Assembly (NCBI GenBank): GCA_002839605.1
Contig: PGYK01000002.1
Span: 186,001 to 250,000 of the forward strand
Reading direction: 5' to 3'
Length of the DNA stretch: 64,000 nt
From: Methanomicrobiales archaeon HGW-Methanomicrobiales-3
GTDB lineage: Archaea > Halobacteriota > Methanomicrobia > Methanomicrobiales > Methanospirillaceae
Under the pieces are notes generated by a model. That model did no database searches, was not told the DNA's origin, and saw only the letters and a program-made list of their open reading frames with translations. Both the position numbers and the translations under genes were made by a program. Numbering within the stretch: position 1 is the stretch's first letter; every line of letters starts with the position of its first letter. Below are positions 7,288 through 27,446 of the stretch, one piece after another.

Positions 7288-8412
7288 ATGAAGAAGAACC
7301 TGCTCATGTGGGACGAATCGCTCTTCCGCGACCCGGACGTTCTCGAGATCGACTATGTCCCCGAGCAGTTCGAGTTCCGTGACCCCCAGATGCGCGAACT
7401 CGCGTTCCAGATCCGGCCCGGGCTCCGGGGCGGCCGGCCGCTCAACACGGTCTGCAAAGGGCTCCCCGGCACGGGAAAGACCACGAGTATCCGGAAACTC
7501 TTTACCGAGATCGAGGAGACGACAAAGAAGCTTGTGCCGGTCTACATCAACTGCCAGATCGACAACACCAAGTTTGCCATCGTCTCCCAGATCTACCGGA
7601 AACTCTCCGGCCACCTGCCCCCCTCGTCCGGCACCTCCTTCAAGCAGGTCTTCGATGCGATTGCCCGGATGCTCATAAAGGAAGATATCGTCCTCTTGGT
7701 CTGCCTTGACGATGCCAACTACCTCCTGTACGAGAACGAGATCAACAAGGTGCTCTACACCCTGCTCCGCTCGCACGAGACCTACGAGGGTACCCGGATC
7801 GGCGTTATCGTTATCATCAGCGACATGGACGTGGATTTGTCCCGGGCGGTTGACGCCCGGGTGGCATCGGTCTTCCGCCCCACCGAGATCTATTTCGCGC
7901 CCTATGGCGATGCGGAGATCCGCGAGATCATGAAAGCCCGCGTTATGCAGGGGCTCTTCTCCGGTGTCCTGTCCGATGAACTCCTCGACCTTGTTGTTGA
8001 GCAGACCCAGAACAGCGGGGACCTCCGCGTGGGTATCGACCTCTTAAAGCGGGCAACCCTCTCCGCTGAACGGGCTGCCCGGCGCAGCATCGAGCGGGAG
8101 GACATCTGCGGGGCGTACGAGATCTCGAAGTACCTTCACCTCAATTACACCGTGAAGACCTTAAAGGACGAAGAACGTCTCATCCTACGGTTCCTTGCCG
8201 AACGGAGTGCAAAAGAGCACGAGATGAACGCGGGTGATGTGTACAAAGCGATCAAGGAGAAGAATGCAATCGGGTACACCCGTTTCTACGAGATTGTAAA
8301 AAAGATGGACGCGATGCGCCTCATCAACCTCCAGTACCGGGAAGGCAAGGGCCGGACCCGGATCATCACGCTCCGGTACGATCCGGCAAAGGTGCTCGAA
8401 TACCTTGGGTAA
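7288..8412 (+). CDS. Orc1/Cdc6-type replication initiator ATPase
   Basis: 374 aa. AAA+ domain with Walker A GLPGTGKTT (residues 58-66), Walker B region LLVCLDDAN (about 136-144), sensor-1 IIISD (about 176-180) and the DARV segment with a candidate arginine (about 189-192), then a winged-helix domain from about 290. It would load the MCM helicase at an origin. Walker B ends D-D-A where most relatives have D-E; the second acid is Asp, so ATP binding is likely kept and hydrolysis may differ. It may be one of several paralogues; nothing here proves an origin beside it. Confidence 0.9.
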   Translation: MKKNLLMWDESLFRDPDVLEIDYVPEQFEFRDPQMRELAFQIRPGLRGGRPLNTVCKGLPGTGKTTSIRKLFTEIEETTKKLVPVYINCQIDNTKFAIVSQIYRKLSGHLPPSSGTSFKQVFDAIARMLIKEDIVLLVCLDDANYLLYENEINKVLYTLLRSHETYEGTRIGVIVIISDMDVDLSRAVDARVASVFRPTEIYFAPYGDAEIREIMKARVMQGLFSGVLSDELLDLVVEQTQNSGDLRVGIDLLKRATLSAERAARRSIEREDICGAYEISKYLHLNYTVKTLKDEERLILRFLAERSAKEHEMNAGDVYKAIKEKNAIGYTRFYEIVKKMDAMRLINLQYREGKGRTRIITLRYDPAKVLEYLG

Positions 8413-22562: not shown

Positions 22563-23741
22563 ATGCGGGTATTTTTCATAGGTTTTGGCCAGGCGGGCGG
22601 CAAAATTGTCGATATGTTTATCGAGCAGGACAAGAAGCTCGGGACAAATAGTTTCAGGGGAATTGCCGTAAATACCGCACGGACTGACCTGATGGGACTC
22701 AAAAATATTGAGATGAAAGACCGGATTCTTATCGGTCAGACCATGGTCAAGGGTCACGGGGTAGGCACCGACAACGTGACCGGGGCCCGGGTGACCGCTG
22801 ACGAGATCGACAGCATCATCAGTGCAATCGATATCCGTGGCACGCATGATGTGGATGCGTTTGTCATTGTTGCAGGTCTTGGTGGAGGTACCGGATCCGG
22901 TGGCTCACCGGTTCTCGCCCGGCACCTCAAACGGATCTACCGGGAACCCGTGTATGCACTCGGCATCATCCCCGCTCCGGAAGAAGGACGGCTCTATTCT
23001 TACAATGCTGCCCGCAGTCTTACCACCCTCGTGAATGAAGCGGATAATACATTCATTTTTGATAACAGTGCCTGGAAGAACGAGGGTGAGAGTGTCAAAT
23101 CAGCATTTACCCGCCTGAATAATGAAGTGGTGCGGCGGTTTGCCGTTCTCTTCCGTGCCGGTGAGATGAGCCGGATGGGTGTTGGTGAGATGGTGGTGGA
23201 TTCCAGTGAGATCATCAACACGCTTCGCGGTGGCGGTATCACCACGGTCGGGTATGCTGTCAGCGAAGTGATGAGCAAGCAGACAAAAGACAAGCGGGGA
23301 ATATTTGGCGGGCTGAAGGACAAGTTCGGGGGCAAGAAAGATGCAAACGTGGAGGTCCTGATGGGCGAGGACCGCTCCGCGAAGATCGTAGCTCTTGTTC
23401 GTCGGGCAATGCTCGGGCGGCTGACCCTTCCCTGCGATTATTCAACTGCCGAACGGGCACTGGTTCTCCTCGCGGGTCCCCCGGATGAGATGGATCGTAA
23501 GGGAATTGAGAAGGCGAAGAGCTGGGTTGAAGAAAATATTGCCGGTGTCGAGGTTCGTGGCGGTGACTACCCGGTCAACAGCGAGTACGTTGCTGCGGTT
23601 GTCATGCTGGCAACGGTTGGCAACGCTCCCCGTATCAAGGAGCTCCTCGATATCGCCAAGGAAACAAAAGAAGATGTTATTAAGTCAAAAGAGAAAAAAT
23701 CCACAATGTTTGAAGAAGGCATTGAGCCGTTATTCGAGTGA
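22563..23741 (+). CDS. CetZ-type tubulin/FtsZ homologue
   Basis: 392 aa GTPase. N-terminal FIGFGQAGGKI and the tubulin signature GLGGGTGSGG (about 105-114) bind GTP; a T7-like segment VVDSSEIINTLRGGG would complete the catalytic site of the next subunit. Overall it is closer to CetZ/non-canonical archaeal tubulins than to FtsZ1/2, because the T7 loop and the C-terminal part differ from the division FtsZ pattern. CetZ controls cell shape in haloarchaea; the role in methanogens is not known. The downstream secreted-protein gene begins within a few bases, so they share a transcript. Confidence 0.85.
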   Translation: MRVFFIGFGQAGGKIVDMFIEQDKKLGTNSFRGIAVNTARTDLMGLKNIEMKDRILIGQTMVKGHGVGTDNVTGARVTADEIDSIISAIDIRGTHDVDAFVIVAGLGGGTGSGGSPVLARHLKRIYREPVYALGIIPAPEEGRLYSYNAARSLTTLVNEADNTFIFDNSAWKNEGESVKSAFTRLNNEVVRRFAVLFRAGEMSRMGVGEMVVDSSEIINTLRGGGITTVGYAVSEVMSKQTKDKRGIFGGLKDKFGGKKDANVEVLMGEDRSAKIVALVRRAMLGRLTLPCDYSTAERALVLLAGPPDEMDRKGIEKAKSWVEENIAGVEVRGGDYPVNSEYVAAVVMLATVGNAPRIKELLDIAKETKEDVIKSKEKKSTMFEEGIEPLFE

Positions 23742-23746
23742 GGTTG

Positions 23747-24865
23747 ATGATGAAGAGTGTAATTAAGTGGATAATTTTATCGGCAATTCTTATATTCTGT
23801 ATCCCGATGGTATCGGCATTTACGGTTTCATCCGTCAGCGTCGAACCATCCGGGTCCCTGGTACCAGGAGATTCTGTCATTGTCTCGTATAAACTCCAGT
23901 TCCCTGCATCCGGTGGGGAGACCTTCCCTTCCGGCAGCGAGCTGCAGATGTCAACGGATCTGGAAGGTGCGAAATGGACCTGGGTTCTGGTCCTTGATAC
24001 GATCGACAACCCCCGTCCTTCGGCCGCAGGCCGGATGCTCTCACTCTCCGGGTTTGAACTCTCCTACCCGGCCGCTGTCGATCAGGCTGTTCGGGTCACG
24101 ATGGAAGGAAAAGTTCCCACCGTTGACAAAACCACCAATAAGACCATCATCAGGATCCAGGAAGTGGATGCGAATGGCAACATCGTGACAAGTTCCAAAG
24201 TGGAACACACGAGAATGGTAGTTAATGTTGGTGAAGTTACCCAGCAGATAACCCAGAAGAGAAATGATCTTCAGACCTTCCGTACCCATATCGATGAGAA
24301 GGCCGCCATTGGCGCCGACACCTCGGTTGCAGAATTAAAATACAGTGATGCAAAGTCAAAGATCGATGCTGCCGCTGCACTGCCCCCAACTCAGTATGCA
24401 ACCGCACTCGCCTACCTCAATACGGCAACAGCGCTGATCACCGATGGTGAGACAGCTCTTGACCGGGCATGGGCAGAGAGTGAAGTGATCCATGCCCAGA
24501 CCCCTATTGCGAATGTTGACCGGGTCATTGCCTGGTTCAAAGGAAATACCAGTACTGCAAATAACGCAGAACTCCCCCCGATCATTGCCAAGCGGGAGAT
24601 TGCGGTGAGTTACATCTCTACGGCAAATGACCAGATTGCGAGCGGGCAGTATTCCCTTGCACGTTCAAAGGCTGCCGAGGCATTTGCCAAAGGGAATGAA
24701 TCCTATACTGAGGCACTTGCACTCCAGGATAAAGTTGGCAAGGGCTTTGTTATTCCCCCGATTCCCGGTATCGTTCCAATCATTGTCGTGGTAATTCTCA
24801 TTGTGCTGGTGGTCGTTGGTGTGATAATCTACCGGAAACGCTCCCAGTGGGATGAACTTGGATAA
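23747..24865 (+). CDS. secreted, C-terminally anchored protein co-transcribed with cetZ
   Basis: 372 aa. GAGG at 23740-23743 supports ATG 23747 or 23750 rather than the open GTG 23738. It has a signal peptide (about 1-25, cut near VSAF), a beta-rich extracellular half (about 26-165), helical segments with many Ala (about 170-330), one transmembrane helix (about 340-362) and a short basic tail. I do not recognise the family. Its gene begins five bases after the cetZ stop, which suggests a link between the tubulin-like polymer and the envelope. Confidence 0.7.
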   Translation: MMKSVIKWIILSAILIFCIPMVSAFTVSSVSVEPSGSLVPGDSVIVSYKLQFPASGGETFPSGSELQMSTDLEGAKWTWVLVLDTIDNPRPSAAGRMLSLSGFELSYPAAVDQAVRVTMEGKVPTVDKTTNKTIIRIQEVDANGNIVTSSKVEHTRMVVNVGEVTQQITQKRNDLQTFRTHIDEKAAIGADTSVAELKYSDAKSKIDAAAALPPTQYATALAYLNTATALITDGETALDRAWAESEVIHAQTPIANVDRVIAWFKGNTSTANNAELPPIIAKREIAVSYISTANDQIASGQYSLARSKAAEAFAKGNESYTEALALQDKVGKGFVIPPIPGIVPIIVVVILIVLVVVGVIIYRKRSQWDELG

Positions 24866-24873: not shown

Positions 24874-25072
24874 ACTCTTCTTTCTCTTCCAATCCTTTTT
24901 TGTAAACCGTTGAAATCGTGAATTTGTAATTGCTCGTGAGGGTATACGCTGGAGCCGTGGCTCCTTGTTCGATGGTGATGAATGACCGGCAGCAGGAACT
25001 TCAAGTCTATCAGCTGATATTCCTGAACCCGGGTGGATGGACCACTCTGTTCCTGTATCAGCATATCCAGAA
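24874..25072. other. intergenic DNA before the tandem repeat
   Basis: Apart from the T-runs and the GGAGCC/GGCTCC hairpin at 24951-24964 I see no gene or known element. The short open frames here lack ribosome binding sites and family signs. With the repeat that follows, the convergent gap totals about 915 bases. Confidence 0.6.
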
Positions 25073-25698
25073 CCGATCCTATGATCAAAATCGGATCGCG
25101 ATTTTTTCCGGATTGGTTTTTGATCGCGATCGTGATCGTGATCGCAGTTCCAAATTCGGGATCCGGTTATGAAATGAAAATCGCCGATCGATTTTGCGAT
25201 CAGAATCGCTGATCGATTTCCATAAAAAAACCGGGATCCGAATTTACGCTCCGTCAGTAATCGCGGTCAAAAACCGGTTTTCAATCGCTGCCCGATTTGC
25301 AGATGAAAATCGCTGATTGATTTTTTCGAAAAGATCGGGATCCGATTCTGCGATCAAAATCGGATCGTGATTTTTCCGGATTGGTTTTTGATCGCGATCG
25401 TGATCGTGATCGCAGTTTTAAATTCGGGATCCGGTTATGAAATGAAAATCGCCGATCGATTTTGCGATCAAAAACGCTGATCGATTTCAATAAACAAATC
25501 GGGATCCGATTGTATGCTCAGTCTGTACCCCTGGTCAAAAAACTGGTTTTCAATCGGGATCCGATTTGCAGATGAAAATCGCGGATCGATTTTTGCGAAA
25601 AGATCGGGATCCGATCCTGCGATCAAAATCGGATCGCGATTTTTCCACATTGTTTTTTGATCGCGATTACAGTTTAAAATTCGGGATCTGATTGCACA
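25073..25698. repeat. 269-bp tandem repeat, GATC-rich, about 2.3 copies
   Basis: Copies start at 25083, 25352 and 25621, exactly 269 bases apart. The third stops after about 80 bases, and about 10 bases before the first copy also match. I count about 33 GATC sites in roughly 610 bases, one per 18. Each unit contains several imperfect palindromes of the form AAAATCG...CGATTTT, several TCGGGATCCG blocks and a short GATCGC/GATCGT run. The array lies between the 3' ends of two convergent genes, so it is not a promoter region. No protein is credible in it. Function unknown. Confidence 0.9.
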
Positions 25699-25781
25699 TG
25701 ATGTTTAAAAAAATCATTGCCATTCGCGAAAATACTCACGGGGGCTTCAAGGCGTATACCCCCCGCCTCCATGATTTTTTT

Positions 25782-27446
25782 TCAGGCTGAGTTGTTCCTT
25801 GTGAAGACATCAATATTGATGCTGCCCATCTTTCCGTCCCGGTGAAGATAGTAGTCGATCATCCGTTTCTCGTTGTCATATACCGAGAACCAGTAACTCA
25901 GTTTGAAGGTTCTCTTCTCATATCCTTCAAGGGATGAATAACTTTCACCATCATGAAGGATGATAAGATCCGGATCATTCTTCGTTATGGTCTCTTCATC
26001 TTCCCGGCTGCCATAAAATTTGATCTTGCTCCACCGGTCTCCCCGGTAGTACCAGGGCAGTGGCCAGTAATCCTTGGATGCGATAACAACATGGTCCGAG
26101 GCATCCATGAGCTGCATCACGAGCCGGAGATCCTCGGAATTCTGAACCTGAACGATCGGTTCATTGATATCAGCAGGAACAAATGCCACGTGCCATGTCA
26201 TGGTGAGAAGGAAGAGACATCCCACAAGGGCAATGACGGTCTTTTGCCAGTTCAGCTGGTACACAGCGACAAAGCACATCGGCAGCAGCTGGGGGATGAT
26301 GAGCCACGGGACTTTTTCCCCGACATAGGCATAGAAGGCCATGGTGAGGATCATCCAGTAAATACAGAGCCGGAAAAATTCATCGGATTTTGTCAGGGGC
26401 GATTTTTTCTCTTGTAATTGCCGTATACTGATCGTGGCAAGATCCCCCACCGGAACCGCGGGATTCCGGCGCCTGATCGCGAGTTTCAGCCGCATCAGGA
26501 GGAGACGGAGATCTATTCCTTTGAAGAGAAACTGGAGTGTCCCGATAAGGGCAAGGAAAAATATCGGCAGCTCGTAGAGGAGGTAGAGGGGAATATAATA
26601 GAACCAGGGTCCGCCCAGGCGCTGCTGCTTGTGCATCGAAGTCCAGTGATCAATTGCTTTGTACCACCCGGTTGAATGGAGATCGAAATGGACGCCTTCG
26701 GTTGTTATGCCGAAATCCTGTCCCACCAGGGTTTCCGAATGGCCGCCAAATCCGGTATACAGCACGCTCATGATCGCAACGACAATGAGGATGCCAAGGA
26801 TCAGGTCCCGTTTCCAGGCAGCAGGAAGCTTGAATGACTTCCTCCAGATTGCGATGAGGAAGAACGACGCAAAGATCAAAAGGATCACCGGCATCTCTTC
26901 CTTGCAGCTGAGCGCTCCCGCCATGGCTATTGCAGAGATTATCGCGAACCGGACCTGCCCGCGTTCAAGGTAGTACAGGAATGCGACAAGCAGGAGGAAC
27001 GTAAAAAACAGCATGAAAATATCGTGCCGGAGGAACCGGGAGAAGTAGGTCATGTCCGGTGAGATTGCAAGGAAGAGTGCCACCAGGAGGGTCTGGTTTT
27101 TCGTGATATACTCAAGCCGGTAGATGCAGTAGACGAGCGGGATGAGCAGCGTGCCGAACAGGCAGGGCAGAAGCCGGGCAACAAGATCGGAACTCCCGAG
27201 CGTTGCAAAGATACCTGCCGTTACATAGTACAGGAACGGGCCATGGTAACTGGGATCATACATCCATGCTCCCCTGGTGAGGAGCTCGTACGAGAACCAT
27301 GCATGAATTGCTTCGTCATGGTGCAGGAGTTTGAGATCAAGGTGCCAGAAGCGTAGAACAATGGCCCCGATTAATATCAGGAGAAAAATCCGTTCAAAAG
27401 TAAAAATTTTTTTGATGGTTTGGGAAAATCCCGCGGCCTGCTGCAC
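25782..27446 (-). CDS. Agl23-like flippase-associated membrane glycosyltransferase
   Basis: 554 aa, about 11-12 hydrophobic segments. The first external loop has HHDEAIHAW (D44-E45), the acidic motif expected of GT-C enzymes, and SRFLRHDIFM follows. This matches the TIGR03663/Agl23 group (PMT-like GT39 relatives). Likely acts on polyprenyl-linked sugars or surface-glycan assembly outside the membrane. The GTG start at 27446 has AGGTG just upstream and lies nine bases after the rps10 stop, so it seems to be transcribed with tuf and rps10. Confidence 0.82.
   Translation of the reverse strand: MQQAAGFSQTIKKIFTFERIFLLILIGAIVLRFWHLDLKLLHHDEAIHAWFSYELLTRGAWMYDPSYHGPFLYYVTAGIFATLGSSDLVARLLPCLFGTLLIPLVYCIYRLEYITKNQTLLVALFLAISPDMTYFSRFLRHDIFMLFFTFLLLVAFLYYLERGQVRFAIISAIAMAGALSCKEEMPVILLIFASFFLIAIWRKSFKLPAAWKRDLILGILIVVAIMSVLYTGFGGHSETLVGQDFGITTEGVHFDLHSTGWYKAIDHWTSMHKQQRLGGPWFYYIPLYLLYELPIFFLALIGTLQFLFKGIDLRLLLMRLKLAIRRRNPAVPVGDLATISIRQLQEKKSPLTKSDEFFRLCIYWMILTMAFYAYVGEKVPWLIIPQLLPMCFVAVYQLNWQKTVIALVGCLFLLTMTWHVAFVPADINEPIVQVQNSEDLRLVMQLMDASDHVVIASKDYWPLPWYYRGDRWSKIKFYGSREDEETITKNDPDLIILHDGESYSSLEGYEKRTFKLSYWFSVYDNEKRMIDYYLHRDGKMGSINIDVFTRNNSA

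Follow-up and report, generated by a model that had tools for sequence, protein, structure and literature searches.

The window, i.e., the whole stretch of 64,000 nucleotides analysed here, carries a tandem repeat array that occupies most of the 916-bp gap separating two convergent genes. The left flanking gene (23738-24865, plus strand) encodes a protein of 375 amino acids without a Pfam match and lies directly after a CetZ gene of the tubulin/FtsZ superfamily (22563-23741), and the right flanking gene (25782-27446, minus strand) encodes a PMT-family glycosyltransferase. A second orc1/cdc6 gene (orc1/cdc6-2, 7321-8370, TIGR02928 257 bits) is located 17 kb from the array. The initial annotation described the flanking genes as convergent, and indeed the plus-strand gene ends at 24865 and the minus-strand gene at 25782, but its argument that such a position excludes a promoter is not general, because members of the same repeat family were found in convergent, tandem and divergent gaps (crude gene calls).

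TRF analysis of the window returned a period of 268, 2.2 copies and 89% matches at 25073-25667, and blastn homology to other copies of the family widened the limits of the array to about 25060-25715 (plus strand, as are all features below). It is GATC-rich, belongs to the type designated A and consists of about 2.2 units. The first core palindrome, CGCGATCGTGATCGTG, with one mismatch to the family core CGCGATCRYGATCGCG, was placed at 25125-25140 by pattern search in the source genome, and the second at 25393-25408, 268 bp after the first. A degenerate third core, TGATCGCGATTACAGTTTA, at 25658-25676 marks the start of a truncated third unit, as judged from the direct-repeat register and the sequence. 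The variable centre of unit 1, which contains CTCCGTCAGTAATCGCGGTC, lies at approximately 25247-25285 by sequence comparison with type A and type B units, and that of unit 2 at approximately 25516-25553 by comparison with other units. The two copies and partial third reported initially were thus recovered by TRF, and the spacing given as exactly 269 bp was nearly right; find_repeats gave spacings of 268 and 269 bp, owing to a 1-bp difference from one copy to the other.

The high GATC density noted initially was also confirmed. There are 34 GATC sites in 25073-25698 (626 bp), whereas dinucleotide-preserving shuffles averaged 10.2 with 17 at most, and 626-bp stretches elsewhere in the window averaged 5.2 with 13 at most. 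AATC-N7-GATT dyads occur 11 times against 0.19 expected, and GGGATCC occurs seven times against 0.09 expected. The array is real and far above chance.

Anatomy of the repeat unit

Across the family, the unit is bounded by two of the 16-bp palindromic cores. Among the 78 core pairs spaced 225-300 bp, the core-to-core distance was 281±1 bp in 46 and 270±1 bp in 17, across loci and species, so that 63 of the 78 pairs from several species fell at 280-282 or 269-271 bp; the p-value for this spacing assumes independence and is not to be taken literally, because the units have a common descent. In the 281-bp class, 33 distinct units aligned without gaps at a mean identity of 72% (range 51-96%). Since these units were chosen by length, more weight attaches to the proportion of all units that fall in the two length classes. 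The top autocorrelation lag was 25 bp, the step at which dyad modules recur between the cores, seven per unit in type B and eight in type A, arranged in two blocks. The centre between the blocks is about 57 nt in type B and about 38 nt in type A; it is nearly unconserved in sequence and its length hardly varies. The 271-bp class corresponds to the 281-bp class minus 10 bp of centre, which is about one helical turn, and some units of odd length (256 and 231 bp) are shorter than 281 bp by a whole number of 25-bp modules. By predicted intrinsic curvature, the arrays are straighter than shuffles or similar to them, and not bent. The arrays are not coding, and the main period of 281 is not divisible by 3.

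Two types of dyad were distinguished, type A (AATCGATCAGCGATT), which is GATC-rich and is the type of the window, and type B (AATCAAACCTTGATT). The modules of one unit agree in dyad type, the distribution over units is bimodal, and almost all units are pure. In the alignment of the 33 units, the symmetry was lost in several modules. The high density of GATC arises as a side effect of one of the two dyad types, and methylation is therefore not the common theme; what is conserved is the dyad and the spacing, not GATC.

Distribution, dynamics and chromosomal position

The search of the genome and its relatives for the unit, suggested in the initial annotation, revealed a dispersed family. The consensus unit matched 27 of the 39 Methanoregula genomes and only 1 of the 69 other genomes of the archaeal family to which the genus belongs, and 12 of the 39 gave no match. 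In the source genome (2.59 Mb, 18 contigs), the window array had 25 blastn matches, and the core CGCGATCRYGATCGCG was present in 24 exact copies and in 39 with at most one mismatch, whereas the reversed control gave none. Of the one-mismatch copies, three that were read sit in apparently coding sequence. Arrays of one to three units occupy about 10-25 intergenic places per chromosome. The named records with paired cores include several Methanoregula, and the others (GC-rich bacteria, cyanobacteria and a haloarchaeon) look like coincidence. The three viral contigs with paired cores, at core-start spacings of about 273-291 bp, were likewise taken as chance. Other genomes of Methanoregula carry half-units (about consensus 1-133), seen in L118, L119 and L120 and in matches in G175, G176, G177, G180, G185-G187 and G191, and some of these have diverged cores, suggesting that further subfamilies may exist. 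Literature searches gave no match for an intergenic repeat in Methanomicrobiales and, for a tandem intergenic repeat in Methanoregula, a volume of conference abstracts as the single match; a term search of the Methanomicrobiales genome paper yielded CRISPR repeats only. This is an apparently unnoticed, non-coding, dispersed family at the level of the methanogen genus Methanoregula.

Among the 20 relatives in which both neighbours are in place and the gap is readable, no array was found at the window locus, which is occupied in the source genome only; in the closest relative (G190) the gap is cut by a contig end. The family is not essential to Methanoregula, because the window array is absent from these syntenic relatives and 12 of the 39 genomes have no match. 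The close relatives G193 and G194 have most of their arrays at corresponding positions but differ in unit number (L136 has four cores, L145 two), and what separates them at the arrays is contraction or rearrangement. Of five G193/G194 array pairs, three had clearly higher identity and fewer gaps than the neighbouring 400 bp (86 vs 51%, 91 vs 76% and 83 vs 72%), whereas the remaining two have mostly genic flanks that are conserved to a similar degree or more. This conservation points to selection or conversion acting on the arrays and is not proof of function. Some array positions are also common to more distant species (one neighbour gene, 64-89% identity).

An inversion between G194 (L134/L135) and G193 (L143/L144) has both breakpoints in arrays, from which the arrays appear to act as recombination substrates, and another array lies at the end of synteny between the two genomes. 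At L008:1756-2265, a type A array is interrupted by an element of about 480 bp, which has imperfect inverted ends (GCTCTGTAGAAA..TTTCTACAGAGC) and contains GC-rich stretches, and similar sequences adjoin arrays in L004, L017 and L025.

In G194, 10 of the 11 arrays are located within 0.80-1.94 Mb, a sector including orc1 at 0.938 Mb. The clustering of arrays round orc1, measured as mean distance, gave p values of 0.0008 in G194, 0.06 in G192 and 0.54 in G195, and the type B arrays of the source genome are concentrated on the orc1 contig (p 0.0006, post hoc). Origin-proximal clustering is inconsistent between genomes and serves as a lead only, because the distance test was chosen after the data were seen and array positions are partly inherited. 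Next to orc1 in G194 (L238:8951-9156) are two ORB-like repeats (ACCCCTTTAnTTCnnGTGGAA) at a spacing of 185 bp, which support a putative origin there. The initial annotation had also proposed a check of the GC-skew position; in G194, the noise in the sampled skew was too high for the origin to be located.

A candidate assembly site and its rivals

We propose, with about even confidence, that the array is a cis-acting non-coding DNA element at which a candidate protein complex assembles at fixed geometry. One dimeric protein may bind the cores, and another, or the same, may bind the modules cooperatively. With binding of this kind the core-to-core length would be held by selection, and the centre would need only the right length. 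Proteins of different binding specificity would recognise types A and B. With less confidence, we suggest that such complexes might serve in chromosome organisation or segregation, much as bipartite iteron centromeres or dispersed SegB or MatP sites do. A more specific form of this proposal is a putative, undescribed Methanoregula chromosome-organising system, with a dedicated protein filament between two palindromic cores at a helically phased fixed distance, 10-25 chromosomal sites, and two dyad specificities (A and B) possibly marking different chromosome regions; we consider this form rather doubtful. The protein-binding array put forward in the initial annotation is still the best reading in view of the spacing fixed across loci and species, the regular 25-bp dyads and a conservation that in most close comparisons exceeds that of neighbouring non-coding DNA. 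On the other hand, the units are related by descent, so that part of their common spacing is inherited, and equal unit lengths could be maintained by gene conversion without any function.

The main rival to the fixed-geometry assembly site is a passive selfish dispersed repeat of MITE or REP type, without host function, which would spread by copying into intergenic sequence and whose copies would be kept alike by recombination and gene conversion, and we regard it as a serious, if less probable, explanation. The family is multi-locus, intergenic, genus-limited and patchy, its presence at the window locus is lineage-specific, and unit number varies between close relatives with rearrangement breakpoints lying in arrays, all of which would be expected of such a repeat. 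The empty-site alignment at the window locus was too diverged to define terminal inverted repeats or a target duplication. However, a Y1 transposase of the RAYT type (Y1_Tnp) is absent from the source genome and G192 (one was found in G194), and the copies are 51-96% identical without length drift, whereas recently active elements are near-identical. The initial annotation held that a common dispersed repeat of clear mobile-element origin would speak against a protein-binding array; the array does belong to a common dispersed repeat, but a mobile-element origin was not found.

The other explanations fare much worse. Transcription of the unit into a structured non-coding RNA would account for the many palindromes and for cores able to pair with each other, yet it is very improbable: RNAalifold on the 33 ungapped units gave weak energy and an unfavourable covariation term on both strands, no Rfam match was obtained over the array, and several modules lack the symmetry needed by a hairpin. 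A role as target of GATC (Dam-like) methylation, the other reading offered initially, or of binding that depends on such methylation would fit the excess of GATC over shuffles in the window array, but it hardly deserves credence: sister arrays of type B share the cores and the spacing but have CAATCAAACCTTGATTG-type modules without GATC, and GATC persists chiefly in the core and in GATCCGGATC next to it. Equally implausible are origin-associated elements bound by Orc1/Cdc6, suggested by orc1/cdc6-2 at 17 kb and by the clustering round orc1-1 in G194, since 25.6 kb of array DNA contains no ORB dyads, the ORB-like repeats lie beside orc1 instead, the majority of arrays lie far from both orc genes, and the clustering is not significant in G192 or G195.

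For the organisation and segregation of methanogen chromosomes, a length-locked intergenic element found across the genus would, under the assembly-site reading, offer a concrete DNA bait for the responsible protein. If the family is selfish instead, a unit length kept through up to 49% sequence divergence would itself call for explanation.

Comparison with known systems

MITEs resemble the arrays in being dispersed non-coding repeats, but the tandem units of Methanoregula arrays share cores. REP, BIME and REPIN sequences with RAYT are likewise intergenic palindromic repeats with constant spacing and many copies, whereas the Methanoregula units are about 281 bp. The likeness to the bacterial parS/ParB system lies in a dispersed 16-bp palindrome and a possible origin bias; in contrast to parS, the Methanoregula elements are long multi-site arrays, and ParB_N (PF02195) had no match in the source genome, G192 or G194, in searches in which the controls matched. 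In Sulfolobales, about 46 palindromic SegB sites are scattered unevenly on the chromosome as single 13-bp TCTAGASTCTAGA motifs, mostly inside genes (PMC12284271). The arrays are similarly palindromic and unevenly dispersed on an archaeal chromosome, and the SegB motif TCTAGASTCTAGA with up to two mismatches occurred 0 times in 25.6 kb of arrays.

The bipartite iteron centromeres of plasmids, such as parC of R1 and tubC of pBtoxis, are composed of blocks of short repeats and a spacer within a few hundred bp. No partition operon was seen adjacent to the arrays, and as compared to parC and tubC the Methanoregula arrays are chromosomal, occupy 10-25 loci, and have 25-bp modules and terminal palindromic cores. 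The likeness is in the architecture, i.e., two blocks of regularly spaced repeats round a spacer, and the Methanoregula units have this arrangement, with the variable centre in the place of the spacer.
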